Source: Acidobacteriaceae bacterium
Lineage (GTDB): Bacteria > Acidobacteriota > Terriglobia > Bryobacterales > Bryobacteraceae
NCBI GenBank assembly: GCA_019240405.1
Contig: JAFAYL010000062.1
Span: 1-64,000, forward strand
Reading direction: 5' to 3'
DNA length: 64,000 nucleotides
In this document: positions 5,490 through 36,051 of the stretch, one piece after another
How the letters are laid out: each line of letters opens with the position of its first letter
Position numbering within the stretch: position 1 is the first letter of the stretch
Position numbers and translations under genes: made by a program
The notes under the pieces: generated by a model
Databases searched by the model: none
Told to the model about the DNA's origin: nothing
The model's input: the letters and a program-made list of their open reading frames with translations, nothing else

Positions 5490-7466
5490 TCAGTCTTCGG
5501 CTGCTACCTTGCCCTGTTGCCGCGCTTTTTCGACCACACTGATGAAAACATCTTCAAGTGAAAAGCGTTCTTCGCGCGCATTGAGAACCCGAATGCCTTC
5601 CTTTTCGAGCAGCTGCGTGGTCGAGCGCAAGCCCGTCTTGGCATCATCGTCGGTAATTACATGCAGCTTCTCGCCAAATAACGACACACGCCAGCGATCC
5701 GCGCTTCTTTTGAGGAAATCCGCAGCACGTTGGGGCTGATCAACCACGAATTCAAGCAGGTGACCCTGTTGCCGGCTCTTGATTTCACTCGGCGTGCCCT
5801 CGGTGACAAGATCTCCAGCGACCATCAATCCCAACCGGTTACACTGCTCCGCTTCCTCGAGATAATGAGTTGTCACAAGAATCGCAGCGCCCAAGTCGGC
5901 GAGCCGGTTGATGACCATCCAGAACGATCGTCGCGCCAATGGATCTACGCCCGAGGTGGGTTCATCCAGAAACAGAACGCTCGGTTCATGCATAATGGCC
6001 GCGCCAAACGCCACACGCTGTTTCCATCCGCCAGGCAGACTCCCGGTAATTTGTGCTTCCCTGCTCTCCAACCCCGAGAACGACAGCACCCATCGGCGCT
6101 TATCGCCTTTCTCACTTTCCGGAACGCCGTAAACTCCCGCAAAAAATTCGAGGTTCTCTTGTATCGACAGATCGTCGTATAGCGAGAATTTTTGAGACAT
6201 GTATCCAATCCGCTGCCGGACCTCAGGCGATCGCAGGCTTCCCCGTTCGCCCGCGAGCTGCATCTCGCCTTCTGTCGGCGCCAGCAGACCGCAAAGCATC
6301 TTGATCGTTGTTGTCTTTCCAGCACCGTTCGCTCCCAGCAGCCCGTATACTTCTCCGTAACGAATCTCCACGTTGACCTTATTGACGGCAGTAAATGATC
6401 CAAACTGTTTCGTAAGCCCTTCCGCCCCGATGGCAACTTGACCTTTGAGGTCTTTGTGATCGCGCCGGTTTGGGAATTCGTACGCTCGTATTTCTTGTCC
6501 CATACCGCGCAGCCGGGCCACGAAAATGTTTTCGAGTGTAGGCTCATCGACGCGAACGCTTGAAATCTCAATCTGAGCTGACGCTAATTCATGACGAAGA
6601 AAGCTTGCCGAGCTTTCCGGATCGCGCACTAAAAGATCGAGACGATCGCCAAAGCGCTGTACATCGGAAATTTCCTTGTCAGCCCCCGTTTCCTTCCGCA
6701 GGAGCTTCTCTGCCTCGGCGAGGCGAGGAGTTCGCAGCTCGAGCCGCTTCGCGCCAAGGCTCGAACGCAGCTCGGCGGGTGTTCCGGTTTGATGAATCTC
6801 GCCTTCGTGAATTAACGCAACGCGGTGGCATCTCTCAGCTTCATCCAAATAGGGCGTTGCAACAAGAATTGCCAGTCCATCGGCAGCAAGATGAGCCAGC
6901 GTATCCCAGAATTCACGGCGTGACACGGGATCAACGCCGGTTGTTGGCTCGTCGAGTAGCAGCACCTGAGGCTCGGGGACAAGCGCGCAGACCAAGGCCA
7001 GTTTCTGCTTCATTCCGCCGCTTAGGCGTCCCGCGAGCCGATCCTGAAAGCGGTCCATGTCGAACATTCTCAGATAGCGAAGACTTCGCTCCGAAATTTC
7101 CTTCGGGGGCACGCGGCGCAGATCACCTACGTAGCGGATGTTCTCCGAAACGCTCAAGTCTGGGTACAAACTGAAGACTTGCGTCAGATAACCGGTTTGC
7201 GCTCGCGCCTCGCGAGCAGGTTTTCCGAACACTTCGGCAGAGCCCGCCGACGCCTCCATGACGCCCGCCAAAATCTGAAAAGTCGAGGTCTTTCCTGCGC
7301 CATCGGGACCGATTAGGCCGAAGATCTCGCCCTTTGACACTTCGAAATTGATCCTGCGAACGGCTTCTGTGTTCCCGTAGCGTTTCCACAGTCCATCGAC
7401 GCGAATGGCGATCGTTAGGCGCGAGCTATCAACTGAGTTGACTGGACTCTCTAGAACCCCGGTCAT
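5490..7466 (-). CDS. Double-domain ABC transporter ATPase (YbhF-like)
   Basis: Two complete nucleotide-binding domains lie in one chain. The first has Walker A GPDGAGKTS, signature LSGGMKQK and Walker B VLLLDEPTTGVDP. The second has Walker A GANGAGKTT, a signature-like SLPGGWKQR and Walker B VLFLDEPTSGVDP. The last signature departs from LSGGQ (LPGGW). A start at ATG 7466 overlaps the HlyD stop as ATGA and has an AGAGAAG ribosome site, giving about 658 residues. An ATG at 7490 is also possible. It powers the two ABC-2 permeases encoded next. The organisation matches YbhF or RbbA-type exporters, and the neighbours favour YbhF. Confidence 0.88.
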   Translation of the reverse strand: MTGVLESPVNSVDSSRLTIAIRVDGLWKRYGNTEAVRRINFEVSKGEIFGLIGPDGAGKTSTFQILAGVMEASAGSAEVFGKPAREARAQTGYLTQVFSLYPDLSVSENIRYVGDLRRVPPKEISERSLRYLRMFDMDRFQDRLAGRLSGGMKQKLALVCALVPEPQVLLLDEPTTGVDPVSRREFWDTLAHLAADGLAILVATPYLDEAERCHRVALIHEGEIHQTGTPAELRSSLGAKRLELRTPRLAEAEKLLRKETGADKEISDVQRFGDRLDLLVRDPESSASFLRHELASAQIEISSVRVDEPTLENIFVARLRGMGQEIRAYEFPNRRDHKDLKGQVAIGAEGLTKQFGSFTAVNKVNVEIRYGEVYGLLGANGAGKTTTIKMLCGLLAPTEGEMQLAGERGSLRSPEVRQRIGYMSQKFSLYDDLSIQENLEFFAGVYGVPESEKGDKRRWVLSFSGLESREAQITGSLPGGWKQRVAFGAAIMHEPSVLFLDEPTSGVDPLARRSFWMVINRLADLGAAILVTTHYLEEAEQCNRLGLMVAGDLVTEGTPSEIKSRQQGHLLEFVVDQPQRAADFLKRSADRWRVSLFGEKLHVITDDDAKTGLRSTTQLLEKEGIRVLNAREERFSLEDVFISVVEKARQQGKVAAED

Positions 7467-9589: not shown

Positions 9590-10537
9590 ATGTCCGGTGA
9601 GACACACAGAATCATTCGGGACAGTACTCCAACAGAACTCGAGACGCGCTTTGCTGACGCTCAATCCAAACTGAACGGCAGCCGGCGAAACTTAATCCGG
9701 TCCATCCTGGAACATCCAGAAGATAATTATTTCCTCTCCTCCCGGGAGCTCGCCAAAAGATACAACGTCAACGCTGCGACAATTGTGCGGACCATACAGG
9801 CGCTGGGCTACAATCGCTTCGGCGACTTCGCGACCGATCTTCGAAATCATTTCGTCACGCGCATTACCCCTTATACGGTAATGCGCGCCACCACGCGTGA
9901 CCGGCGCCTCTTGACCGATCGAATCCGCCGCAATATCGAGCGTGACCTGGAGAACCTGACGGCTCTTCTGGCGGGACTCGATACACCCCGTGTATTGCTG
10001 GTTGCGAAACAGATCCAAAAGGCCCGCCGAATCATCGTCGTTGGCGTCGATTTTGCGGCCTTTCTCGCGGGAATCCTCGCCTATGCGCTCCGGGTGCAGG
10101 GATGTGATGCGGACGCTCCGGAAGGAAGCTCAGGCAACCTGCGTCACCACGTCGATCTGCTCGGCGAAAAGGATTTGTTAATCGCAATCAGCTTCGGGCG
10201 GTGCCTGCGAGACACCGTCGAGAGCGTCCGCCATGCCAGGTCGCGTGGCACTTTCACCTTCGGTATTACCGATAGCGATATAACGCCAATCGCGCGGTTT
10301 TGCGATCAGCACATCGTAGCATCCATCTCCAGCGTTGTATTCACCGGATCTTATGTTGCCCCTCTGGCTGCGGTCAACGCAATTATTTCCGCAGTAGCTC
10401 ATATCCATCCCAAGCGGACGCTCGAGCGGCTGCGAAGGAACGAACAGGAATACACTTCCGGAGCGCGCTGGTACCAGAACGAAGACGGGAGCCGTAACCG
10501 CTTTCTGGGTCGTAACCGGGGCTCAAAGGATACTTGA
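9590..10537 (+). CDS. MurR/RpiR-family transcriptional regulator with SIS domain
   Basis: This 315-residue regulator has an N-terminal RpiR-type helix-turn-helix (SSRELAKRYNVNAATIVRTIQALGY) and a C-terminal SIS phosphosugar-binding fold (KARRIIVVGVDFAAFLAGILAYAL, then LLIAISFGRCLRDTVESVRHARSRG). SIS regulators usually sense a sugar phosphate; MurR senses N-acetylmuramate 6-phosphate. That would suit control of the peptidoglycan-type hydrolase genes that follow. It lies about 100 bp upstream of the TonB receptor gene on the same strand, and both promoters carry the same 17-bp motif. No strong ribosome site is seen. The actual effector is not known. Confidence 0.85.
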   Translation: MSGETHRIIRDSTPTELETRFADAQSKLNGSRRNLIRSILEHPEDNYFLSSRELAKRYNVNAATIVRTIQALGYNRFGDFATDLRNHFVTRITPYTVMRATTRDRRLLTDRIRRNIERDLENLTALLAGLDTPRVLLVAKQIQKARRIIVVGVDFAAFLAGILAYALRVQGCDADAPEGSSGNLRHHVDLLGEKDLLIAISFGRCLRDTVESVRHARSRGTFTFGITDSDITPIARFCDQHIVASISSVVFTGSYVAPLAAVNAIISAVAHIHPKRTLERLRRNEQEYTSGARWYQNEDGSRNRFLGRNRGSKDT

Positions 10538-10560
10538 CAATGGTGCAACATCTGATGCAC
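10534..10560 (+). promoter_or_regulatory. Operator copy 2 and -35 element before the TonB receptor operon
   Basis: A perfect TTGACA at 10534-10539 overlaps the end of the regulator gene and is followed by TGCAACATCTGATGCAC (10544-10560). Aligned with 9509-9525 the two share TGCAACA-NNN-G(T/A)TGCAC, that is 13 of 17 fixed bases plus one T/A position. No convincing -10 is visible at 16-18 bases; GTTAAT at 10566 is too far. Confidence 0.45.
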
Positions 10561-10634
10561 ACTCTGTTAATCTGATGAGGCTCGCCCCGTCAATGCGGGC
10601 CGGGTGAGAAAGTTGTTCTGAAAAAAGGGGAGCT

Positions 10635-13600
10635 ATGCCAGGTTTTCGGGCTGTATTATTCGTTACGCTTTCGGCTGGGATTCTGCTCGTGAGTTCCAGT
10701 CCGGGTATAGGCCAGACCTCCGACACAGGAGCCCTCGCCGGGACAATCTTTGATCCCTCAGGCGCTTTAGTCCCCGGCGCTCAGGTCAAGGTCGTCAATG
10801 AATCAACCGGAGAGATACGCACCACGGTCTCGCAGGCAAATGGAAATTACGTGGTGCCATTGTTACCTCCCGGCTCGTATAGGGTAGAAACAACCAAAGC
10901 AGGTTTCAAGAGCACCATCCAGGAAGGCGTTCAAATCGTTGTCACCGAGACGGACGCTCTAGTTACGCACCTCCAGATCGGTCAACCGAACCAGGAAGTG
11001 ACCGTCCTGGCGTCGGCCGAACAGCTCCAAACCGAAACGAATGTACTGGGTCGCGTAACATCGGGCCTGGAAATCAACGCGATGCCTTTGGTCACGCGTA
11101 ACTTCACGCAAATCATCGGACTCAACCCCGGAATTTCGACCGATGTGGAGAACGCCGCTGCTTTGGGCCGTGGTACGGATGCCCAAATCGGGGGAGCCCC
11201 GGCCACAGTCGCGCATGGCGGCACGACTTCGGACAACAACTTCCAAATGGACGGTGTCGATGCGAACGATATTGAGGCGAGCGGCCATTTTAGCGGTGGC
11301 ATTGCAATTCCCAATCCCGACACAATTGAGGAGTTCAAAGTACAAACCGGACAATATGATGCTTCTCAGGGCCGCGATGCTGGCGCCAATGTGAACGTTG
11401 TCACTAAAAGCGGCACGAATCAATTTCACGGAGATGTATGGGAGTACTTCCGCAACGAGAAACTGAACGCAAACGATTTCTTTTTGAATGAGACCGGTCA
11501 ACACAAGGGAATCCTCCGCCAAAATCAGTTCGGCGGCACGTTCGGAGGTCCGATTAAGAAAGACAAGATTTTCTTTTTTGGCTCCTATCAGGGCACGCGG
11601 CAACTCAACGGCGTCGGTACCGAGTGCTCATCCGCGTTTTCAACCCCGCCGTTGACAAACGACCGCTCCGCAGCAGCGCTCGGGAGACTTTTCGCTGGGC
11701 AGACAGGCGCCTTCGGTGGGCCTCCCATTGCAGCCGACGGTTCCAATATCAATCCCGCTGCACTCGCCCTCTTGCAATTGAAGCTTCCCAACGGACAATA
11801 TTTGATTCCAACACCGCAGACCGTCGACCCAGCGAAGCCTTTTGCGATTCAAGGCTTCTCTGCCTTCAGCACCCCTTGCTCCTTTAATGAAGATCAGTAT
11901 CTTGCCAACGGCGACTATCTGCAAAGCGAGAAGAGCAAATTTTCAGTTAGATTCTTTCTGGCTAACGACAATCAGGACGTCACTCTACCCGTAACGAATC
12001 TTGGAGGCCCCACGGCGCCAGGATTCCCGGCGATCACAGACACGAAATTTCGTAATATCGCTTTTTCGCATAGCTACGCTTTCGGTCCCACTTTGTTTAA
12101 TGAAGTTGATTTCGGGTTTCACATTACACACGTGAACCTGGTGCAACAGGAAGCATTCAAGTTTTCCGACGTTGGCATCAGCACTCCCGCATTCGACAAT
12201 GCTATCCCGGCAATCGCGATCAACGGAGCTCTGACGCTCGGTGGAAATGGGCAGGGTCTACTACTCGATCAAGGAGCCTACGCTCTCAAGGATTCGCTCT
12301 CCTACACGCTGGGTCGCCATTCACTGCGGTTTGGCGGGGGCTTCACACGATACCAAAACGACTTCACTAACTTCCACTATCTTGCCGGTTTGTACTTCTT
12401 AAGTTTCCCGGATTTTCTACTGGGACAGAGCGGGATTCAGAACGGCACGGGTCTTAGCAATGTCTTCCTCTCGGTAGATCTTCCTGGTCTTTTCAATCGT
12501 CGCTGGCGCGTCCTTGATGCCGATGGCTACATTCAAGACGACTTCAAAGTAAGTCCGCGATTGACCCTCAATCTCGGCTTTCGTTATGAGCGGCTCGGCG
12601 ATCAGGGCGATAATCTAGGGCGTAACAGTGCATTTAATTTCGGTCTAGCCGATCCGAATCCTCCTGCGACGGGTACGCTCGCCGGATTCGTCGTTCCCTC
12701 AAATTACAAAGGCACTATACCGCCCGGCGTAACGCAGATCGGCAACAACTTGGGCATCAACGGCGATGGGCAGAATACCTGGAACCCGCGCATCGGTTTC
12801 GCCTACCGCCTTCCCCATACAGAACGCTTCGTTCTTCGCGGCGGCTACGGAATCTTCCATTCGCGCATAACCGGCCAGCCGTTCCTTCAATTAGTTACTG
12901 GCCAGCCGTTCGCCGTGTTGCGCGAGTTCGTCGGCCCGACCAACGCGGCCGCTTCTCTGCAGAATCCGTTCCCTCCGCCCCCAACTCTGCCTTCATTTAC
13001 TCCCTATTCCCCCACGACCGCGTTCTCCACAACCACTTTTTCAGCCAACTTTCAGCCTCCGATGCTCCAGACCTACAACATGAATCTGCAAACCCAGATT
13101 GCTAGGGATTTCGTGCTTGAGGTCGGCTACGTGGGACAGCGCGGTTTGCACCTTGTGAATGAGCGGTCCCTAAATCAAGCTGCTTTCGCCACTCCGCAAA
13201 ACCCCATCCGCGGGCAAACGGACAATACCGTTGCGAATATACCCTTGCGGGTTCCCATTGAAGGTTGGGCGCCATTTCCAGGTATTCAGCAGATCGAATC
13301 TGGAGGAGCGAACTGGTACAACGCGTTTGAAACAAGCCTGAACAAACGCTTCAGTTACGGGCTGCAATTTCTCGCCTCTTACACCTTTGCCCGTGATCTT
13401 GCTACGGATACTGGCAGCAGCGATTCGCCAAACGGAGGCCTTGCATTCGGAGACCAAAACCATCCGGGTGATCGTTATGGCCCGGATGAGTTCATCCGCG
13501 AGCAGCGCGTGGTGATCAGCTTCCTTTACGAGCTGCCCTGGCTGAAAAACTCAAAATCATGGCTCGGCCAAATAGGCGGCGGATGGTCCATCGCCGGAGT

Positions 13601-14072
13601 AACCACCATACAGTCGGGCCATCGCATGACCATCATTAACAGCGGGAATGCCTTAAACGTATTCGGGATTCCGTATGATCGCGTACAACTCGCGCCCGGA
13701 TGCACTTATGGTGAGCTTGTCACTTCCGGGTCCATAGGAAGCAAGTTGAACGACTATTTCAATACCAAGTGCCTGGCTCCGCCGCCCGTAATTGGAGCGG
13801 ATGGCATCGGCACGGGATTTGGAAATAGCGGCGTAGGTATCGTGCTCGGACCGCCGCAGGACAACTGGGACATCGCAGCCGTCAAGCATTTCCCTCTCGG
13901 TTGGCCTAATGAGAAGACCAATCTGGAATTTCGCGCCGAGTTCTTCAACGTATTCAATCACCCGCAGTTTTCGGACCCCGCCAACGACTACTCCGGCGCC
14001 AATGTCGGCCAAATCACGTCATTGGCGGTCAATCCGCGTATTATTCAGTTCGCTTTAAAGCTGAATTTCTAA
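10635..14072 (+). CDS. TonB-dependent outer-membrane receptor with carboxypeptidase-regulatory domain
   Basis: The 1145-residue protein begins with a signal peptide (cut near GIGQ). A CarboxypepD_reg beta-sandwich follows (GALAGTIFDPSGALVPGAQVKVVN), then a plug region (FQMDGVDANDIEASG, GANVNVVTKSGTNQFHG) and a long beta-barrel ending in an aromatic C-terminus (IIQFALKLNF). A GGGGAG ribosome site stands just before the ATG. It is the Oar-like receptor class that is expanded in Acidobacteria. As first gene of the hydrolase/permease operon it probably imports or binds the peptide or glycopeptide that the following enzymes process. A paralogue heads the opposing operon at 28729-32289. Confidence 0.9.
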   Translation: MPGFRAVLFVTLSAGILLVSSSPGIGQTSDTGALAGTIFDPSGALVPGAQVKVVNESTGEIRTTVSQANGNYVVPLLPPGSYRVETTKAGFKSTIQEGVQIVVTETDALVTHLQIGQPNQEVTVLASAEQLQTETNVLGRVTSGLEINAMPLVTRNFTQIIGLNPGISTDVENAAALGRGTDAQIGGAPATVAHGGTTSDNNFQMDGVDANDIEASGHFSGGIAIPNPDTIEEFKVQTGQYDASQGRDAGANVNVVTKSGTNQFHGDVWEYFRNEKLNANDFFLNETGQHKGILRQNQFGGTFGGPIKKDKIFFFGSYQGTRQLNGVGTECSSAFSTPPLTNDRSAAALGRLFAGQTGAFGGPPIAADGSNINPAALALLQLKLPNGQYLIPTPQTVDPAKPFAIQGFSAFSTPCSFNEDQYLANGDYLQSEKSKFSVRFFLANDNQDVTLPVTNLGGPTAPGFPAITDTKFRNIAFSHSYAFGPTLFNEVDFGFHITHVNLVQQEAFKFSDVGISTPAFDNAIPAIAINGALTLGGNGQGLLLDQGAYALKDSLSYTLGRHSLRFGGGFTRYQNDFTNFHYLAGLYFLSFPDFLLGQSGIQNGTGLSNVFLSVDLPGLFNRRWRVLDADGYIQDDFKVSPRLTLNLGFRYERLGDQGDNLGRNSAFNFGLADPNPPATGTLAGFVVPSNYKGTIPPGVTQIGNNLGINGDGQNTWNPRIGFAYRLPHTERFVLRGGYGIFHSRITGQPFLQLVTGQPFAVLREFVGPTNAAASLQNPFPPPPTLPSFTPYSPTTAFSTTTFSANFQPPMLQTYNMNLQTQIARDFVLEVGYVGQRGLHLVNERSLNQAAFATPQNPIRGQTDNTVANIPLRVPIEGWAPFPGIQQIESGGANWYNAFETSLNKRFSYGLQFLASYTFARDLATDTGSSDSPNGGLAFGDQNHPGDRYGPDEFIREQRVVISFLYELPWLKNSKSWLGQIGGGWSIAGVTTIQSGHRMTIINSGNALNVFGIPYDRVQLAPGCTYGELVTSGSIGSKLNDYFNTKCLAPPPVIGADGIGTGFGNSGVGIVLGPPQDNWDIAAVKHFPLGWPNEKTNLEFRAEFFNVFNHPQFSDPANDYSGANVGQITSLAVNPRIIQFALKLNF

Positions 14073-14093
14073 GATGATCGACCAGACTGCCAG

Positions 14094-15680
14094 ATGACCG
14101 CTCGCCGCGCCGCGTCCAGTTTTGCGATTCTATTAAATTTCTTCTGGCTTCAGCCTCTCCTTGCCGAACAGAGTGCGCCGCCCGCCGATCTGGATGTTTT
14201 CGTCGCGCGAGTTTTGAAGACCTTCGAAGTGCCCGGGCTCTCAATAGCCATCGTCAAAGACGGCCAGGTTGTGCTCACTAAAGGATACGGCATACGCAAA
14301 ATGGGAGATTCGGCTCCGGTTGACGAGCATACGCTCTTCGGAATCGGATCGAACACAAAAGCTTTCACGTCAGCACTGCTCGCGTCACTAGTGGATGAAG
14401 GAAAGATCTCTTGGGACGACAAAGTCTACGAGCGGCTTCCCGGTTTTCAGATGTATGACTCTTATGCGTCGCACGAGATGACAATTCGCGACCTGCTCAC
14501 GCATAAGAGTGGGATGGGGTTGGGTGAAGGCGATCTGCTCTTCTGGCCGCACACGACTTATTCGCGCAAGGACATTATTTACCGCCTGCGTTTCATGAAG
14601 CCCCAGTCTAGCTTCCGCAGCCATTACGCTTACGACAACCTGATGTACTTAGCTGCAGGGGAGATAATTGCGGCGGTTACAGGTAAGGCTTGGGAAGAAA
14701 ACGTTCGCGACCGGATTCTTACCCCTCTGGGCATGTCTGCGACCAACCTTACTAATGCGAGTTGGGCGTCTAATGACAATTACGCTTGGCCGCACTCGAA
14801 ATTGCCTGGTGAGTTGCAGCCGATTGATTTCGTGCCTCTCGATAACGCAGCGCCTGCCGGTTCGATCAATTCCAGCGCTTCGGAGATGGCTAGATGGATC
14901 CTTTTACAACTGAACCATGGCAAATTTCCGGACTCTGATAAGCGGCTGTTCAGCGAGGAACAGTCGAAACAAATGTGGTCTCCACAGACCATTTTGCCGG
15001 TCGGCGATCCCCCGGCGCCCCTCGCAGCTCTCAAAGCAAACTTTGCAGATTATGGATTGGGGTGGGGTCTGCGAGATTATCGCGGACACAAATTGATCGG
15101 CCACAGCGGTGGAGTTGCGGGGTTCGTCTCGCGAGTGCAGATGGTTCCGGACGAGCGTCTGGGAATTGTCGTGCTCACCAATGCCGAAGAGGGCGGAGCC
15201 ATGGACTCCATCGAGTACTATCTCCTCGACCATTACTTGAATCTTCCGCGCACTGATTGGGTCAAAGCATTTCGAGATGCGGAACTTGCGCAAGAGCAGC
15301 AAGCTTCGGAAGAAATGAAAAAACAAGCTAACTCACGAGCTGCCAAATCGAGTCCTTCCCTTTCGCTTGAGAAGTATGCCGGCGCATATAACGACGTATG
15401 GTACGGGCCATCTACCATTCGTATGGAAAATGGCAAGCTAGTGTTTACTCTTGACCACACGCCCAAGGCCATTGGCGATCTGGAGCACTGGCAGTACGAC
15501 ACGTTCAAAACGCATTGGCGGGATCGCACCATCGAGGATGCGTTCCTTACGTTCGCGCTGAAACCCGACGGCGACATTGACCACTTCACGATGGTGGCTG
15601 TCTCACCGCTTGCCGATTTCAGCTTCGATTATCAGGATCTTTACTTCACCCCAGTGGTCCACTCTACGAGGCGGCCTTGA
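14094..15680 (+). CDS. Serine beta-lactamase-fold hydrolase (DD-peptidase/D-aminopeptidase class)
   Basis: The 528-residue product has an N-terminal signal-like stretch and the class C/DD-peptidase motifs: SNTK with Ser86 and Lys89, the YxN motif Tyr180-Asp-Asn182, and the HSGG box (IGHSGGVAGF). A C-terminal lipocalin-like extension (LEKYAGAYNDVWYGPSTIRME) resembles DUF3471. Such enzymes cleave peptides next to D-residues or act as esterases. A periplasmic location is likely. It follows the receptor gene by 21 bp and is itself followed by a second member of the same superfamily, suggesting processing of a D-amino-acid-containing substrate. True beta-lactamase activity is less likely in this context. 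Confidence 0.82.
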   Translation: MTARRAASSFAILLNFFWLQPLLAEQSAPPADLDVFVARVLKTFEVPGLSIAIVKDGQVVLTKGYGIRKMGDSAPVDEHTLFGIGSNTKAFTSALLASLVDEGKISWDDKVYERLPGFQMYDSYASHEMTIRDLLTHKSGMGLGEGDLLFWPHTTYSRKDIIYRLRFMKPQSSFRSHYAYDNLMYLAAGEIIAAVTGKAWEENVRDRILTPLGMSATNLTNASWASNDNYAWPHSKLPGELQPIDFVPLDNAAPAGSINSSASEMARWILLQLNHGKFPDSDKRLFSEEQSKQMWSPQTILPVGDPPAPLAALKANFADYGLGWGLRDYRGHKLIGHSGGVAGFVSRVQMVPDERLGIVVLTNAEEGGAMDSIEYYLLDHYLNLPRTDWVKAFRDAELAQEQQASEEMKKQANSRAAKSSPSLSLEKYAGAYNDVWYGPSTIRMENGKLVFTLDHTPKAIGDLEHWQYDTFKTHWRDRTIEDAFLTFALKPDGDIDHFTMVAVSPLADFSFDYQDLYFTPVVHSTRRP

Positions 15681-31700: not shown

Positions 31701-32289
31701 ATCGATTCCCGTTCGAGTGGATGCTGGCATCGTTGCCGAAGCTGCCCACAATGCCGGACAATCCGCCGTTTCCCCGGCCGAGATCCGTCGCGTTATTCAC
31801 AGGCGCGATCACTCCCGGCGAGAGCGAAAGTACCTGCGTATAGTTGCGAGTGACCAGCGGAAGATTTGTTACCGTCTGCTCGTCAACAACTCGCCCCACT
31901 GCGCTCGATTCGGTTTGCACCAACTCTTCGTTGGCACTTACAGCAACTGTTTGTTGCACCGCGCCCGGCTGCAACTCCATGTCGACGACGTTCGTTTCCG
32001 TTACAACGACCTGAACCTTTGAATCTATTGCCGTTTTGAACCCCGTCTTTCGGACGTTTACCGTGTAGGCACCGGGATCGAGCAGCGGAACGCGAAAGGT
32101 GCCATCACTCCCTGAAACAATAGTTCGCGCCTCGCCGGTTTCGTTGCGAGTGACCGTGACGGTCGCGCCTGGAACGACGGCGCCTGTCGAGTCTGTAATT
32201 GTGCCCGTGACCGCGCCCGTCGCGGCGGTTTGGGCGTGAGCCTGTAGGCCCATCAAAGAAATCACAACAATCCAGGCAATTCGGTTCAT
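28729..32289 (-). CDS. TonB-dependent receptor with carboxypeptidase-regulatory domain
   Basis: From ATG 32289 (GGAAG ribosome site) the product has 1186 residues: signal peptide (IAWIVVISLMGLQAHAQ), CarboxypepD_reg domain (GAVTGTITDSTGAVVPGATVTV), plug (FQMNGLQVNDISGSA, GANVDLITKSGTNSFHG) and barrel ending IIQFAVKLNF. It is closely similar to the receptor at 10635-14072, for example in PNPDTIQEFKVQTGQYDAS and LFFFGSYQGTRQ. It leads the reverse operon of two S10 peptidases and an aminotransferase. Its start is only 26 bp from the 21-bp tRNA-Ser repeat at 32315-32335, so insertion of the island has displaced its original upstream region. Confidence 0.9.
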   Translation of the reverse strand: MNRIAWIVVISLMGLQAHAQTAATGAVTGTITDSTGAVVPGATVTVTRNETGEARTIVSGSDGTFRVPLLDPGAYTVNVRKTGFKTAIDSKVQVVVTETNVVDMELQPGAVQQTVAVSANEELVQTESSAVGRVVDEQTVTNLPLVTRNYTQVLSLSPGVIAPVNNATDLGRGNGGLSGIVGSFGNDASIHSNGNRSIDNNFQMNGLQVNDISGSAAGSGGVPIPNPDTIQEFKVQTGQYDASYGRNAGANVDLITKSGTNSFHGNAFEFFRNTVLNANDFFANEAGAPRGVLDQNQFGGTLGGPILKDKLFFFGSYQGTRQRNGIALGCSSTQVLPTPLNGAEGTLGNDRSALAIAQLFNGQRGLFQNIDGGVGPAIDASAPTGNGTPNPYNINPVALALLQMKLPNGSFLIPSAASPSGLTVLRSPCSFNEDQYLGDVDWIHSERSTFFARYFIADSNQTVSFPNASYNNGFGATPGSPSLQPERFQALAIGNTYTLTPQLVNEVRVGFHRTVDAAEQVNPFSFSSIGATVSPFYNDLPSIYISGCCQIGGGAPLTSIQGSYDANDMLAWTLGKHNIRVGGGVTRSYLNERDFRSNGIVIYPTWPDFLLGLNAFQTGTIFTPGPPFGNVLVTIDFIGLSDRDERAWDGYGYFQDDIKLTRRFTLNVGLRYERIGELGDTRGRNGNFDPALANPNPPASGTLAGFTVPSNVVGAVPAGVTKTDNNLGIPGLGQNAWEPRVGFAWQPLPNSDRVVIRSGYGIYYTRPVGAAILETISSPPFGDLRVCQEACALAATAQNPFPPAPPLSSFPLFQPYSPSTNETVLELGQGFRPPRIQQYSFGVQTSLAKNYLLEVGYVGSHGTDLIRQLGLNQALSASPQNPVRGQTDNTIANIPLRLPYIGFASDASSLNEIQAAGFSWYNALEASLTKRFSNGLQFLASYTWSKELDTDAADPEWGSAGGTSSLGNQSPNPATRYGRGNFNRSQRFVASYLYQFPNPAGAGWKNRMLGGWSVAGVTTIQSGQYLTLTGTNANNVFGITEDRIEIAPGCAYSQLVTPRSVKSKLTNYFNGNCIDRQNLSLPLDVVNGTNLPVWPIIGADGIGTGFGDSGIGIVTGPGQANYDMTIQKLTSIRESMNPLFRAEFFNAFNHPQFSNPDVSTADSTFGQILSTSVNPRIIQFAVKLNF

Positions 32290-32314: not shown

Positions 32315-32335
32315 CGGTGAGGGTGGGATTCGAAC
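32315..32335. repeat. 21-bp direct repeat of tRNA-Ser 3' end (att-like site)
   Basis: These 21 bases are identical to 35930-35950, the 3' acceptor stem and part of the T-arm of tRNA-Ser(CGA). Identity stops sharply on both sides. The intact tRNA is at the other end, so this is the pattern left when an element integrates into a tRNA 3' end and restores the gene. Confidence 0.85.
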
Positions 32336-32661
32336 TCTAGAGTGGTGTTTAGAATCTGTAAGTTGCTGATTCGTGGTTGCCGCGACTGCCGTATTTGCCA
32401 GTGCTGCCGTCGCGCATTGCCCAAAATTGCTCAAAAGAGAGGGCTGGTCGGCTGAAGGCCACATGCCTGTATCGCAAGTTAGCTGCAATTGCAAATACGC
32501 CGCGCGAAGGTTTTATGACTGTGGTTGTCATGCGCTCACCCGTCGCAGTTCGGAACCGACCGATAGCTCGAATGCTTAAAAGCAGGACAAGGCGGACAGC
32601 GCGGTGCCCAATTTCGGGTCAAGCAACTGTTCAGAGTTCCCGAAATACGCCAAGTCTAAGC

Positions 32662-32708
32662 ACTCCGCACTTTACTCGGAAGTACTTCGCGGCTGAGCGC
32701 TTCCGAGT
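32662..32708. repeat. Hairpin module copy C
   Basis: ACTCCGCACTTTACTCGGAAG starts a module whose 9-bp arms, 32674-32682 and 32700-32708, are perfect inverse copies around a 17-base loop containing GGCTGAG. It lies 73 bp downstream of the AlbA_2 gene's stop. The same unit occurs at 34144 and 35641. Confidence 0.75.
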
Positions 32709-32780
32709 TCCAGCCGCCGTATTCATCGAAAAGATTTCTTTACGACTAGCCCAGTCGAACGGCAAAGATGTTGGCGGTTC

Positions 32781-34142
32781 TCAGTCACGGCTCTGGGCTA
32801 GCGCATAGCGGCGTCGTGGATCATGCGGACCCGTACCAATTTCGACAATGACCCCATGTTCTGAGAGTGATCGTAATCGGGTAAGAGTTGCACGATGTGA
32901 AAGGTCTATGAGTTCAGCGATTTCAGCGGTCGACAGAGATTCAGTCTTCCCTAATTGCTTCAGAATCAGGTCGTCCTTTGAATCGCTTTTTGTCTTTTCT
33001 GTCCGCGCCGTGCTAATTGCAACTCGAAAATGGGTTCCCAACTCTTCCAACGCCGGTGCCGGCAGCCCCGCGTCCACACAAGCGGTCGCCATTCGCTGAA
33101 TTCCGCTTCCCCACTGTTCAATGAGATGGAGCTCGTGGAAAACTCTTCCGATGACTCGATTCCGAAGTTTTGAAACACCTCGTTGAATATCTTCTACTGT
33201 CAGTCCGAATGGAAGTAATCCTGGGTTATCCAGTTCGATGCGATTGTCGAAGACGGCAATTCGGATAGGAGAGCCAAGCTGAGCATAATCAGCGTGAACA
33301 ATCGCATTGATAACAGCTTCCCTTATAGCGACAGGCGGTACAGTCCAGCGATATTGGCGTCTGACAGTGCCAATCAGAGTTTCTCTCTGCAAGTGTTTTT
33401 GCACGAACGATATTGCTTCTTCGGCTGCGTGCGGCAAATACGATCTGATTTCGACAGAATCAATCAACCGCGATCGGTCTACACCCGCAAACCGGCCGGC
33501 TTGTACCCAGGCATCCGGAAACCGTTCCAGACGAGTCCTCCCGAACAACAGTAGCCCGCCAATTGTGGGCACTGTGCGGCCATGATGCTCGGTAGTAACG
33601 CGAAGTGTTCGAAATCCCTCCGCAGTAATATTTCGATACCTGGAGAACAACTCCGAAGCTGCGGAGAAATCTAGAGCTTCCGAGCTGAGGTCTTCAACTG
33701 GTTGTTCGTCGAAAGAGTCCATACGGTTCAATCGACGCAATTCTTCGATTTGGACTGGGTCAGCACGTCTGTTGGTCGACCCAACTCGGATAAACACACC
33801 ATTCTCAGGACCGAGACGGACTAGGTGATGTGGACGTGTATTGCTTGGATATGCTTGGACCGCGAGCACGTTTAGCTTTCGCCACGGAACGACCTCGATA
33901 TCGGGTATCAGTTGAGGTCGGATATTGTCGGCGATCAGATTAGCAACGCGCTCTTCTGCTGAGAGCACATCCGGTACCCCGCGCACGCGTTTAGTTCCAT
34001 TTTCGATGCCGATGACAACAGTTCCGCCGGCCGTGTTAGCAAATGCAATGATCGTTTTCAGAAATGTCTCTGTGGAAGAGAGATCTCTCTTGTATTCGAG
34101 CGTTTTGCCTTCGGCGCGGCGTAGCAACGAGGCCAAGTCCAC
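32781..34142 (-). CDS. AlbA_2 (Schlafen-type) ATP-binding protein, RecG-like C-terminal half
   Basis: The 453-residue product has an N-terminal AlbA_2/Schlafen DNA- or RNA-binding domain (GKTLEYKRDLSS, FANTAGGTVVIGIENGTK, VFIRVGSTNRRADPVQI). A GHKL/HATPase_c_4-type ATP-binding part follows (AIREAVINAIVHADYAQLGSPIRIAVFDNRIELDNPG, WGSGIQRM), and a C-terminal winged helix (LSTAEIAELIDLSHRATLTRLRSL). Such proteins are common on mobile islands and are annotated as helicase-like or transcriptional regulators; some Schlafen-type proteins act in phage defence. The start is GTG 34142, touching hairpin copy B. It is one of two cargo genes of the tRNA-Ser island. Confidence 0.85.
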   Translation of the reverse strand: MDLASLLRRAEGKTLEYKRDLSSTETFLKTIIAFANTAGGTVVIGIENGTKRVRGVPDVLSAEERVANLIADNIRPQLIPDIEVVPWRKLNVLAVQAYPSNTRPHHLVRLGPENGVFIRVGSTNRRADPVQIEELRRLNRMDSFDEQPVEDLSSEALDFSAASELFSRYRNITAEGFRTLRVTTEHHGRTVPTIGGLLLFGRTRLERFPDAWVQAGRFAGVDRSRLIDSVEIRSYLPHAAEEAISFVQKHLQRETLIGTVRRQYRWTVPPVAIREAVINAIVHADYAQLGSPIRIAVFDNRIELDNPGLLPFGLTVEDIQRGVSKLRNRVIGRVFHELHLIEQWGSGIQRMATACVDAGLPAPALEELGTHFRVAISTARTEKTKSDSKDDLILKQLGKTESLSTAEIAELIDLSHRATLTRLRSLSEHGVIVEIGTGPHDPRRRYALAQSRD

Positions 34143-34143
34143 T

Positions 34144-34193
34144 ACTCAGCATTTTACTCGGAAGCGGGAGCGACTCTCTTGGCCCTCCGAGGT
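34144..34193. repeat. Hairpin module copy B
   Basis: The first 21 bases (34144-34164) differ from copy A in one position and from copy C in two. The left arm CTCGGA (34157-34162) pairs with TCCGAG (34186-34191), with a longer loop than in the other copies. The module abuts the GTG start of the AlbA_2 gene and lies about 100 bp downstream of the 441-aa gene's stop. Confidence 0.7.
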
Positions 34194-34296
34194 CAAACAT
34201 CCCCAAATCCCGAAAACTACCGGTGGAAAACAGTGGCTTTGCTTTTCGAGCATCCGAAAGCCAAGAACTGGCGTAGCTAGATTGACATGCGCGTGC

Positions 34297-35622
34297 TCAG
34301 TTCGGTTTTTTCTTTGAAGTGTCGATGATGAGGGACTTCGCGTAGTCCTCCATCGCTTTCCTCATCTTCTCTTGCTTCTGCTCTTCGAGGAACTGCTCCC
34401 ATGGCGTTAGTCGCCAGTACTGCTCCCACGGGCCAAAAATGGATGTCCAACGATGCGTCGTCCTGTGAAGTTGACTCGAAGGATATGTCTTATCCGCCAA
34501 TCGATTCGACGGGCTAAGTAGCAGAATGCAGCCACGGTGGCGGTCATTTTCAAGGCAATCAAGAAACTTGCCGTGAGCCTCTAGATACGTTCCTTTCGAA
34601 AACAACCGGTAGTGTTCTTTGGGTTCAACGAACTTGCCGTTCTTATAATGACCATCATCTTGTACATACACCTTCCAAGCAGACTCGATGCTGGGCTGGA
34701 ACCCGAGAAGTTCACGATACGTGTTTTCGGAATGCAAACCTTCTTTGGCTTGTATGAGCCGCATGATCGAATGGTTGAAACAGTCGAGTTCTCGCATGCA
34801 ACGAACGGAAAGATATTCGCTGTGCAGGAATAACCACTTGAGAGTTAATTCTAACGGGAGAAAATGCTCCAAATCATAGCGGCTTACACCTCCTCGATAA
34901 TAGGAGGCGGTCCAGAGGTCACGCTGGCCATTCTGTCCTCGGTAGGAATATACATCGGTGTAGGTTCCTTGCTCCCACGTTGGAGTCTCTTCCCGTTGCC
35001 AAGTTCGCTGAATATCCTGTGGGAAGGTGATTTGGTAGCGTAGTGCAGAGCCGCCGTATCGAGAGCAATCCTCTTTAAACTGGAACGTGAACGGAATGTC
35101 ATCGAGGAGAACGGGCGGTTGATAATGCCTTGCCGCAACGGCTTTTCGTTCTGCTTTTTGGATCGGCTGGCGAACGACCCTGTCGAACAATTCCCAAATC
35201 GCTTCTGTGACGGGTCCCCGCTTTCCGTTGATCGTTCCGTCGGCTGACCGGTAAGCCCAATGGTCATTCGTGTACCCGGAGACTACCCGCTCGACTCTGC
35301 CGAGGTGCTGATGTTCATAGAAGACTTCATATTGCGTGTACTGCAGCTTCTTGCGTGAAGACAGTTTCGGATCCCGAAATTCGGGTGAGCTTTGGAGCGT
35401 GAACGTTTGACTGAAAGTCGCAATAGTGAGTCTCTCGCGACGTGGTTTCTCCGAACGAACTGAATTGAAATTGTCGTTGTGCTCCACTGAAGTACAAGGC
35501 GGTGTGGAAGATGGTACCGGCTGGGTCGACGAGATACTTTCCAGGTTGCGCTTTCGACTACCCCTCGAGGCAAGACGGTCGCGCATCTCCCGTTGTCGTC
35601 GTTCTAGTTCGTGTCTGTCCAT
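34297..35622 (-). CDS. Unrecognised hydrophilic 441-aa protein of the tRNA-Ser island
   Basis: I do not recognise this protein. From ATG 35622 (AGAGG ribosome site) it has 441 residues and no signal peptide or membrane segment. The N-terminus is highly charged (MDRHELERRQREMRDRLASRG), followed by a Ser/Pro/Thr-rich linker. An aromatic-rich central region (YEVFYEHQHLGRVERVVSGY, DIPFTFQFKEDCSRYGG, YSYRGQNGQRDLWTASYYRGG) and a Lys/Glu C-terminal helix follow. A longer open frame to 35973 would run through the hairpin and the tRNA and is not credible. It shares the island with the AlbA_2 gene, same strand, each gene followed by a hairpin module. A defence or island-maintenance role is only a guess. 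Confidence 0.65.
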   Translation of the reverse strand: MDRHELERRQREMRDRLASRGSRKRNLESISSTQPVPSSTPPCTSVEHNDNFNSVRSEKPRRERLTIATFSQTFTLQSSPEFRDPKLSSRKKLQYTQYEVFYEHQHLGRVERVVSGYTNDHWAYRSADGTINGKRGPVTEAIWELFDRVVRQPIQKAERKAVAARHYQPPVLLDDIPFTFQFKEDCSRYGGSALRYQITFPQDIQRTWQREETPTWEQGTYTDVYSYRGQNGQRDLWTASYYRGGVSRYDLEHFLPLELTLKWLFLHSEYLSVRCMRELDCFNHSIMRLIQAKEGLHSENTYRELLGFQPSIESAWKVYVQDDGHYKNGKFVEPKEHYRLFSKGTYLEAHGKFLDCLENDRHRGCILLLSPSNRLADKTYPSSQLHRTTHRWTSIFGPWEQYWRLTPWEQFLEEQKQEKMRKAMEDYAKSLIIDTSKKKPN

Positions 35623-35640
35623 AATAGTTGCCTCTAGCCT

Positions 35641-35687
35641 ACTCCGCATTTTACTCGGAAGTGCTTGGCTGAGGATAGCTTCCGAGT
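35641..35687. repeat. Hairpin module copy A
   Basis: It has the same 21-base lead as the other copies, with perfect 9-bp arms ACTCGGAAG (35653-35661) and CTTCCGAGT (35679-35687) and a 17-base loop containing GGCTGAG. It ends 18 bp before the 441-aa gene's start codon (minus strand), taking 35641 as its gene-proximal edge. Spacing to copy B is 1497 bp, and from B to C 1482 bp. Confidence 0.75.
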
Positions 35688-35929
35688 TAAAGAGACGCGC
35701 CTTCCTGAAACTTGAGGAAAGAGGACGGCCAAGACTCGAATGATCTACGAGGAATTCGTCGTCGGTATGGTTTCCTCCGCGAGTCTTTGCCCAAACGAGA
35801 AGATAGCGCGGTGGAAAGTCGTTGAAAACAACTGGGGAGGCAACGAACGGGGGTTCTGAGTGCACCCTCACCACTGAATTCAGAGCGGACTTTACTGCTA
35901 AGTTGTTATGTTTACAATGCTTAGTAGAA

Positions 35930-36016
35930 CGGTGAGGGTGGGATTCGAACCCACGGACGAGTTGCCCCGTCAACGGTTTTCGAGACCGCCCGATTCAACC
36001 ACTCTCGCACCTCACC
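35930..36016 (-). tRNA. tRNA-Ser (anticodon CGA)
   Basis: On the minus strand the acceptor stem GGTGAGG pairs with CCTCACC, with discriminator G at 35930. The anticodon loop CTCGAAA gives anticodon CGA, the long variable arm is typical of serine tRNAs, and the T-arm contains GGTTCGAATCC. No CCA is encoded. Its last 21 bases are duplicated at 32315-32335, so it is an integration target. Confidence 0.95.
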
Positions 36017-36051
36017 ACATCGGGAACTGTTTCAAAGATAACAGGCGACCT

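Follow-up and report, generated by a model that had tools for sequence, protein, structure and literature searches.

An island bounded by copies of a tRNA-Ser end

We analyzed a 64 000-nucleotide stretch of DNA from a soil-type Acidobacteriaceae bacterium (contig JAFAYL010000062.1, positions 1 to 64 000; hereafter the window), whose genome assembly comprises 4.45 Mb in 63 contigs and is 95.8% complete. An earlier note had proposed that 3.6 kb of the window form a non-autonomous island in a tRNA-Ser gene, bounded by a 21-bp direct repeat of the tRNA 3΄ end and holding two genes and no integrase; the repeat and both genes were confirmed, and no integrase was detected. The sequence CGGTGAGGGTGGGATTCGAAC occurs exactly at 32315–32335 and 35930–35950, the copies lying 3615 bp apart, and is the sole exact direct repeat of a 21-mer across the window. 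Between the copies lie two genes, here called gene A (32781–34142) and gene B (34297–35622), both on the minus strand. The repeat was also said to lie 26 bp from the start of a TonB gene, and this closeness stands, with the gap to the ATG at 32289 corrected to 25 bp. The boundary features, including the attachment (att) sites, are as follows.

32315 to 32335, minus strand: attR-side copy of the 21-bp att core, distal to the tRNA, with CCA after it (exact repeat)
32336 to 32432, minus strand: conserved 97-bp att arm with a GAGCAAT/GGGCAAT pair, GGCA repeats and the dyad GAATCAGCAACTTACAGATTC (aligned with 23 other island ends)
32352 to 32372: dyad-symmetry element inside the att arm (columns GAATCTG.AAcTT.CAGAt over 24 ends)
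35930 to 35950, minus strand: att core copy within the tRNA (attL side), 21 bp (exact repeat)
35929 to 36017, minus strand: tRNA-Ser (anticodon CGA), the insertion target, with the encoded CCA missing (ARAGORN; comparison with L023, L025, L026 and L027)

With up to three mismatches, the CGGTGAGGGTGGGATTCGAAC pattern was found at four places in the whole genome, compared with one for the reversed control; the two additional places, with two mismatches each, are the ends of the tRNA-Ser genes GCT and GGA. The G+C fraction was 0.514 for the island versus 0.556 for the window. No integrase was identified in either island protein using Pfam, and none of seven integrase queries matched the island at E ≤ 0.01.

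The sequence is CACCGTTC in the window tRNA-Ser(CGA) and CACCGCCA at the distal copy, the latter being the end of tRNA-Ser(CGA) in all four genus relatives in which the whole gene was found (L023, L025, L026 and L027). Because CCA is present on the distal copy and absent from the tRNA copy, the simplest reading is that the chromosome's original 3΄ end is now the distal copy; an island-supplied end on the present tRNA is what would be expected from a crossover inside the repeat. Judged from its sequence, the 3.6-kb stretch carries the signature of an insertion and looks like a genuine one. The same four tRNA genes adjoin a deoxyhypusine-synthase-like gene, which was found in 13 of the 17 genus genomes, and the DNA 3΄ of these tRNAs is unlike that of the window (in L023, the gene after the tRNA was judged by eye to be rpe). 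The examined relatives accordingly do not share one gene order with identical repeats, the arrangement that the earlier note had named as evidence against an insertion. In three further relatives (L028, L029 and L031), the tRNA-Ser(CGA) beside the deoxyhypusine-synthase-like gene breaks off near the anticodon, at a contig end in L031; these may mark the junction of a different insertion, or the assembly may be broken there.

An att arm shared with other islands

We aligned the 97-bp arm with other island ends and obtained 24 attR-type ends from 21 of 237 family genomes, all beside tRNA 3΄ ends. When classified by eye, 20 were of serine type, three were leucine-like (L230, L234 and L238) and one (L189) was neither. 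The identity between the window arm and the other 23 ends ranged from 0.58 to 0.75, with a mean of 0.68. For the 60 bp beside the core, which lie outside every search pattern, the mean identity to the window was 0.62, compared with a random-piece baseline of 0.25 (99.9th percentile, 0.42). Caution is needed with the whole-arm values: when the arm was compared with 300 random 1-kb stretches drawn from the fetched loci, which themselves contain true arms, the best matches had an identity of up to 0.69 (mean 0.40).

The arm pair GGGCAATNNNGGGCAATG occurred exactly at 33 places in 25 of the 237 genomes, and its reversed pattern at two. By our own count, 25 of the 33 places were at tRNA ends (20 attR-type and 5 attL-type). 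A scan with the shared core returned 62 places in 53 genomes, much of which is noise at three mismatches given the 15 places found for the reversed control; of the 19 places with zero to two mismatches, 17 were covered, with G036:C162, G194 and all three-mismatch places left out. Among 12 of these 17 places, nine had a tRNA end and three (L187, L191 and L198) did not. A set of 19 arm regions, G027 among them, comprised 11 with an attR-type end, two with an attL-type arm by an intact tRNA-Ser and six with neither. The arm word was found at two places in viral contigs, and at neither did a tRNA end follow.

Two gene A homologues from another genus (L080 and L081) sit in islands at tRNA-Ser(GGA), where the tRNA end is repeated on the far side and the distal ends align with that of the window. 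The L080 island is 2.57 kb long; in L081, two islands (2.44 and 2.59 kb) lie in tandem, with near-identical ends and different cargo. The window has the feature that defines this family, namely a repeat of the tRNA 3΄ end with a GGGCAAT/GGCA/dyad arm at the distal copy. An arm pair on the attL side, present in L080, twice in L081 and in variant form in L196, is not defining; on its attL side, the window has AACAACTTAGCA in common with L263. The CCA placement and the shared distal arm together support the non-autonomous, tRNA-bounded insertion of the earlier note.

These data also bear on the possibility that the distal copy is a tRNA fragment that arose by chance or duplication in ordinary variable DNA, with no integrated element. 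The flanking TonB gene is not conserved within the genus, as such an origin would allow; the uniqueness of the 21-mer repeat in the window, the CCA placement, the arm in common with 23 further ends that adjoin tRNA 3΄ ends and the association of the exact pair with tRNA ends (25 of 33 places) make it highly improbable.

A candidate helper integrase at tRNA-Ser

Both ends were seen for six islands of 1.7–3.6 kb (those of the window and L080, the two of L081, and those of L190 and L196, at 1.7 and 2.1 kb), and none of the six matched any of the seven integrase queries at E ≤ 0.01. An integrase-bearing member of the family nevertheless exists. The ∼7.4-kb element L244 lies at tRNA-Ser(GGA) between copies of the tRNA end at its positions 7361 and 14734, and encodes a tyrosine integrase (13357–14709) and a second recombinase (10193–11119). 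Integrases of the L244 type were present in 39 of the 237 family genomes (E ≤ 1e-20). Among the 30 loci fetched, a whole tRNA-Ser was found in 19, tRNA-Leu, tRNA-His and tRNA-Lys in one each and no tRNA in eight, some of which were cut by contig ends (ARAGORN, linear setting, under which L255 had no tRNA-Ser). One locus from the same genus as the window, L258 (G011), is at tRNA-Ser(CGA). A looser pattern revealed 12 arm-like pairs in 112 kb of integrase loci, eight of them between the tRNA-Ser and the integrase.

We compared the genomes containing the arm at tRNA ends (22) with those containing the integrase (39), and found an overlap of 10, compared with 3.6 expected (P = 0.0007). At a cut-off of E ≤ 1e-70 the overlap was 8 versus 2.2 expected (P = 0.0004), and at this stricter cut-off without G208, the genome of the query itself, it was 7 (P = 0.0016); these P values ignore the kinship of the genomes, and the list of arm genomes was drawn up by eye, excluding G125, in which the arm has no tRNA end. 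These results suggest that an L244-type integrase is the likely helper of the window island and that it may use the island's arm. Mobilization in trans, and an integrase elsewhere that uses tRNA-Ser, had both been suggested in the earlier note: such an integrase, matching the family, was found at tRNA-Ser in related genomes and not in the island's own, and we infer the movement of the island, including its present mobility, from this match.

No L244-type integrase was found in phage and plasmid records. A 56.6-kb viral contig (L280) encodes an integrase of the tRNA-Ser family with 39% identity, so a phage could be a helper. Separately, the three leucine-like arm ends (L230, L234 and L238) and same-family integrases beside tRNA-Leu and tRNA-His (L261 and L271) are possible target switches.

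Gene A and its conserved palindromes

The genes of the island and their predicted control sites are as follows.

32673 to 32708, minus strand: additional palindrome 3΄ of gene A, 0 mismatches (palindrome and motif scan)
32781 to 34142, minus strand: gene A, with SLFN_AlbA_2, HATPase_c_4 (RecG C-terminal-like) and a winged helix-turn-helix (HTH) (Pfam; 13-homologue profile)
33649 to 33685, minus strand: palindrome within the gene A coding sequence, 506 bp downstream, 3 mismatches (palindrome scan, codon constraint)
34142 to 34164, minus strand: core CTTCCGAGTAAAATGCTGAGTAG with a –10-like TAAAAT, its end overlapped by the GTG start of gene A (motif comparison)
34155 to 34192, minus strand: palindrome before gene A, 19-nt spacer, 2 mismatches (palindrome scan)
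34297 to 35622, minus strand: gene B, encoding a 441-amino-acid protein without detected relatives (searches without match)
35652 to 35687, minus strand: palindrome ACTCGGAAG-N17-CTTCCGAGTA before gene B, 0 mismatches, overlapping the core at 35639–35661 (palindrome and motif scan)

The Pfam scores of gene A exceeded the curated cut-offs for PF04326 (82.9 versus 25.3 bits), PF13749 (90 versus 26) and PF13412 (24.1 versus 21.9), and its winged HTH is HTH_24. By sequence, a profile of 13 homologues matched Schlafen chains and Lrp/AsnC-type HTH chains in the PDB; the structure predicted from the 13-row alignment was too poor for use (predicted local distance difference test (pLDDT), 49.9). Homologues at E ≤ 1e-40 were present in 34 of the 237 family genomes and, among the 17 genomes of the genus, in this one only. 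Most of the homologue loci examined showed no island ends: 27 were checked for flanking repeats, and those at tRNA ends were L080 and L081. No gene A homologue was confirmed in viral contigs.

A 23-bp motif at the start of gene A combines an inverted repeat, ACTCGGAAG-N17-CTTCCGAGTA, a –10-like TANAAT and the start codon ∼8 bp later, a distance that suggests a leaderless mRNA. TTGC was seen by eye near –35 at 15 of 26 sites. The motif was found at 36 places in 30 of the 237 genomes, compared with one place for the reversed control. Three of these places, the only copies in the genome, are within the island at spacings of 1482 and 1497 bp; of the 33 others, judged by eye, 30 are at or in tandem before the start of a gene A-like gene or remnant and three are unrelated. 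A scan of GTDB contigs returned 21 stretches; the titles of 18 name Acidobacteria or a subgroup thereof, and in part these are the same genomes; no gene A-like gene followed in L101 and L116, and one was present in L108 (titled Actinobacteria).

The palindrome itself is conserved, with 122 strand-hits versus three in reversed sequence, in 366 kb of loci that had been picked for the motif. Most gene A homologues contain a second, intragenic palindrome ∼506 bp downstream of the first. We examined synonymous codon use in 33 homologues, and found that identical synonymous codons were most strongly in excess at codons 152–165 (0.36, compared with 0.13 in the next separate window), a value reached by none of 5000 shuffles. 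The promoter and intragenic sites show the same base change in L071 and differ in L131. From these patterns, the gene A product probably controls its own gene via the promoter and intragenic palindromes, to which it would bind, possibly with looping between the sites ∼506 bp apart. As a separate observation, L075 has four tandem gene-A-type palindromes with a 166-bp period that reach the start of the homologue (5738–6273). We also considered the motif as an RNA hairpin and rejected this, given that its three copies fold no clearly better than shuffled sequences (z = –1.54, 0.83 and –0.82); an Rfam search returned the tRNA and two matches below the gathering score.

Three copies at these spacings, outnumbering the genes by one, might instead be integron-like recombination sites bounding gene A and gene B as separate cassettes, and in L082 a palindrome does lie on either side of the gene A homologue. 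Contrary to this, 30 of the 33 places outside the window mark starts of gene A-like genes or remnants, the motif contains a –10-like TANAAT, the second palindrome is intragenic and under synonymous constraint, and no cassette array was seen. By the criterion of attC sites together with an integron integrase, the island is not an integron cassette; the three integrases of the genome are on other contigs. We regard a cassette origin as quite unlikely and rejected the attC assignment, as the motif marks the starts of gene A homologues.

Gene B

No relatives of gene B were found in the 237 family genomes, 399 genomes of the class, GTDB contigs, plasmids, phages, viral contigs or PDB sequences, nor did it match any Pfam or PADLOC model; only two weak PHROG matches were obtained (E = 0.033 and 0.27). 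Its predicted structure was too poor for use (pLDDT, 41.0). Given the perfect palindrome at its start, it is most simply read as being under common control with gene A.

Elsewhere in the window, positions 1–92 hold an inverted repeat at the extreme start (reverse-complement 21-mers).

Cargo of the islands

In the first L081 island, the cargo comprises genes for AbiEi and AbiEii. The cargo of L196 is a DUF2971 gene matching PADLOC PDC-S31, and that of L190 is a HicB-like antitoxin gene that is below the Pfam cut-off and has no PADLOC match. Genes for AbiEi, MzaE and MzaD-like proteins, and for Multi_ubiq, ThiF and a CapP-like M78 peptidase, lie inside the arms of L192 and L193; the other ends of these two islands were not seen on the fetched stretches, and their cargo may be part of larger elements. 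In L192 (7500–14001), which is from the same genus as the window, the AbiEi, MzaE and MzaD-like genes adjoin an arm with an end of tRNA-Ser type.

In the window island, no named complete anti-phage system was matched by PADLOC. The Schlafen-like gene A gave partial matches to Aga, pAgo, Csa3 and CARF models (best E = 6.2e-11), and gene B, which is without detected relatives, gave none. The suggestion in the earlier note that such islands carry defence cargo is supported for sister islands (AbiEi/AbiEii in L081 and PDC-S31 in L196) and not for the window island itself, for which a defence function may be proposed.

Origin and mobility of the island

We consider it likely that the 3.6-kb stretch is an integrated non-autonomous island, mobilizable in trans, with a self-regulated Schlafen-like gene. 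It has no detected integrase of its own and yet bears the landing-site signature of a wider island family, and so probably moves with an enzyme borrowed from related elements. In this scheme, a tyrosine integrase recognizing tRNA-Ser would recombine the attachment site of the island with the 3΄ end of tRNA-Ser(CGA), strand exchange taking place inside the 21-bp core. The tRNA would thereby receive an island-supplied 3΄ end lacking CCA, and its former, CCA-bearing end would come to lie at the far side. Arm sequences would be retained for binding by an L244-type helper integrase from related tRNA-Ser elements, which in principle would make excision and insertion in trans possible. The Schlafen/AlbA_2 and winged HTH protein would act on its own promoter and on the intragenic palindrome, possibly by looping, and gene B would respond through the same palindrome in its promoter region.

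However, several observations weigh against this explanation. An empty site joining tRNA-Ser to this TonB gene, which the earlier note had proposed to look for, was not found among the 17 genus genomes; a TonB-like protein at E ≤ 1e-100 is present in three of them, including this genome, and the other two proteins are 41 and 40% identical. The attL side of the window, like that of L190, has no recognizable GGGCAAT pair, and the attachment site may therefore be incomplete. No L244-type integrase was found in the island's own genome at E ≤ 1e-20. The three integrases of this genome are ∼20–30% identical to the tRNA-Ser integrases, where they match at all, and no tRNA-Ser was present within the 16–18 kb fetched around them. 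As for the regulatory part, none of the motif copies in the window has a TTGC –35-like box, the two palindromes of gene A itself are the most degenerate of the four in the window, L075 and L108 have no intragenic palindrome and L066 has no sequence there. Since gene B has no detected homologue, its role is read from position and palindrome alone. Apart from these points, the window contains a second gene for a TonB-type receptor (10704–14069), which is 52% identical to the one adjoining the island.

Some of the same observations would be accounted for by decay, in which a deletion stripped an autonomous element of this family of its integrase and left it stranded, as a fossil resembling a cis-mobilizable element (CIME) and not as one of a pool of islands that naturally have no integrase. 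An autonomous member of ∼7.4 kb exists (L244), the attL side of the window is without an arm pair, and the island's own genome has no helper. Against decay, integrase-less small islands in other genera (L080, L081 twice, L190 and L196) keep well-conserved distal ends, and the tandem islands of L081, having different cargo and near-identical ends, fit re-use in trans better than independent decay. We hold decay to be possible but rather doubtful; it allows past movement in trans, and its probability thus overlaps with that of the preferred explanation. A tRNA-Ser integrase acting in trans remains the best-supported account, with decay as the main and not exclusive rival.

A broader model, put forward tentatively and with the balance leaning slightly against it, is that tRNA-Ser-specific tyrosine integrases across the family, carried by larger elements and perhaps temperate phages, serve a pool of minimal integrase-less modules that share the arm and carry one interchangeable toxin–antitoxin or defence unit each. 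The module in the window would combine a self-looped Schlafen-like regulator with an orphan effector under the same operator. If this is the case, defence genes can spread as tiny modules for which attachment arms and a shared helper integrase suffice; within the family, tRNA-Ser genes would be a hot spot for defence, and one could search with the arm for modules and cargo not seen so far. It would also become possible to test directly what prokaryotic Schlafen/AlbA_2 proteins do, because the DNA sites predicted to bind them can now be named.

Comparison with known systems

A report on Dehalococcoides describes tandem islands at ssrA that are bounded by direct repeats of the RNA gene 3΄ end and have a conserved motif beside the repeat; 16 islands have an integration module and 15 do not, the latter being proposed as possible cis-mobilizable elements (PMC3146451). 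The islands analyzed here are similar in their RNA 3΄-end repeats, tandem arrangement, motif by the repeat and module-less members. They differ in the target and enzyme (tRNA-Ser and a tyrosine recombinase, compared with ssrA and a serine recombinase), in their longer repeat-rich arm, in belonging to another phylum, and in being small with toxin–antitoxin or defence-type cargo rather than reductive dehalogenases.

CIMEs are described as decayed integrative and conjugative or integrative and mobilizable elements that later become joined by accretion with an incoming element (PMC5704250). Measured against that description, the window island is CIME-like in having attL and attR and no integration or transfer genes, and it differs in that no adjacent integrase is seen in the window and that several small islands have conserved ends in common. 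As to mobilization in cis by an adjacent element, tandem islands were seen in L081, and no integrase of the seven queried kinds was found in the window. No internal gene common to the island and an integrase-bearing relative was found, no systematic search having been made. Compared with satellites resembling phage-inducible chromosomal islands, neither of the two genes is an own integrase, packaging or helper-interference gene.

The domain set of gene A (PF04326 and PF13749) is that of COG2865-type proteins. Gene A has the same domains as these Schlafen AlbA_2/RecG-C-like/HTH regulators and differs from them in its conserved promoter and intragenic palindromes. Bacterial operator pairs with an intragenic site include lac O1 and O2. 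As in lac, the second site here lies within coding sequence, at a set distance from the first, as looping would allow; the protein is unrelated to that of lac, and both its binding to the palindromes and the looping are predictions. The top-ranked results of our literature searches, which covered few subscription journals, described neither such an operator for the Schlafen AlbA_2 family nor, for Acidobacteria islands, CIMEs, tycheposons and integrase-less satellites, the present island family. The logic of these islands is known from CIMEs and the Dehalococcoides islands, and the tRNA-Ser arm family, its minimal defence-type modules and the predicted Schlafen operator pair appear, from these search results, to be new.

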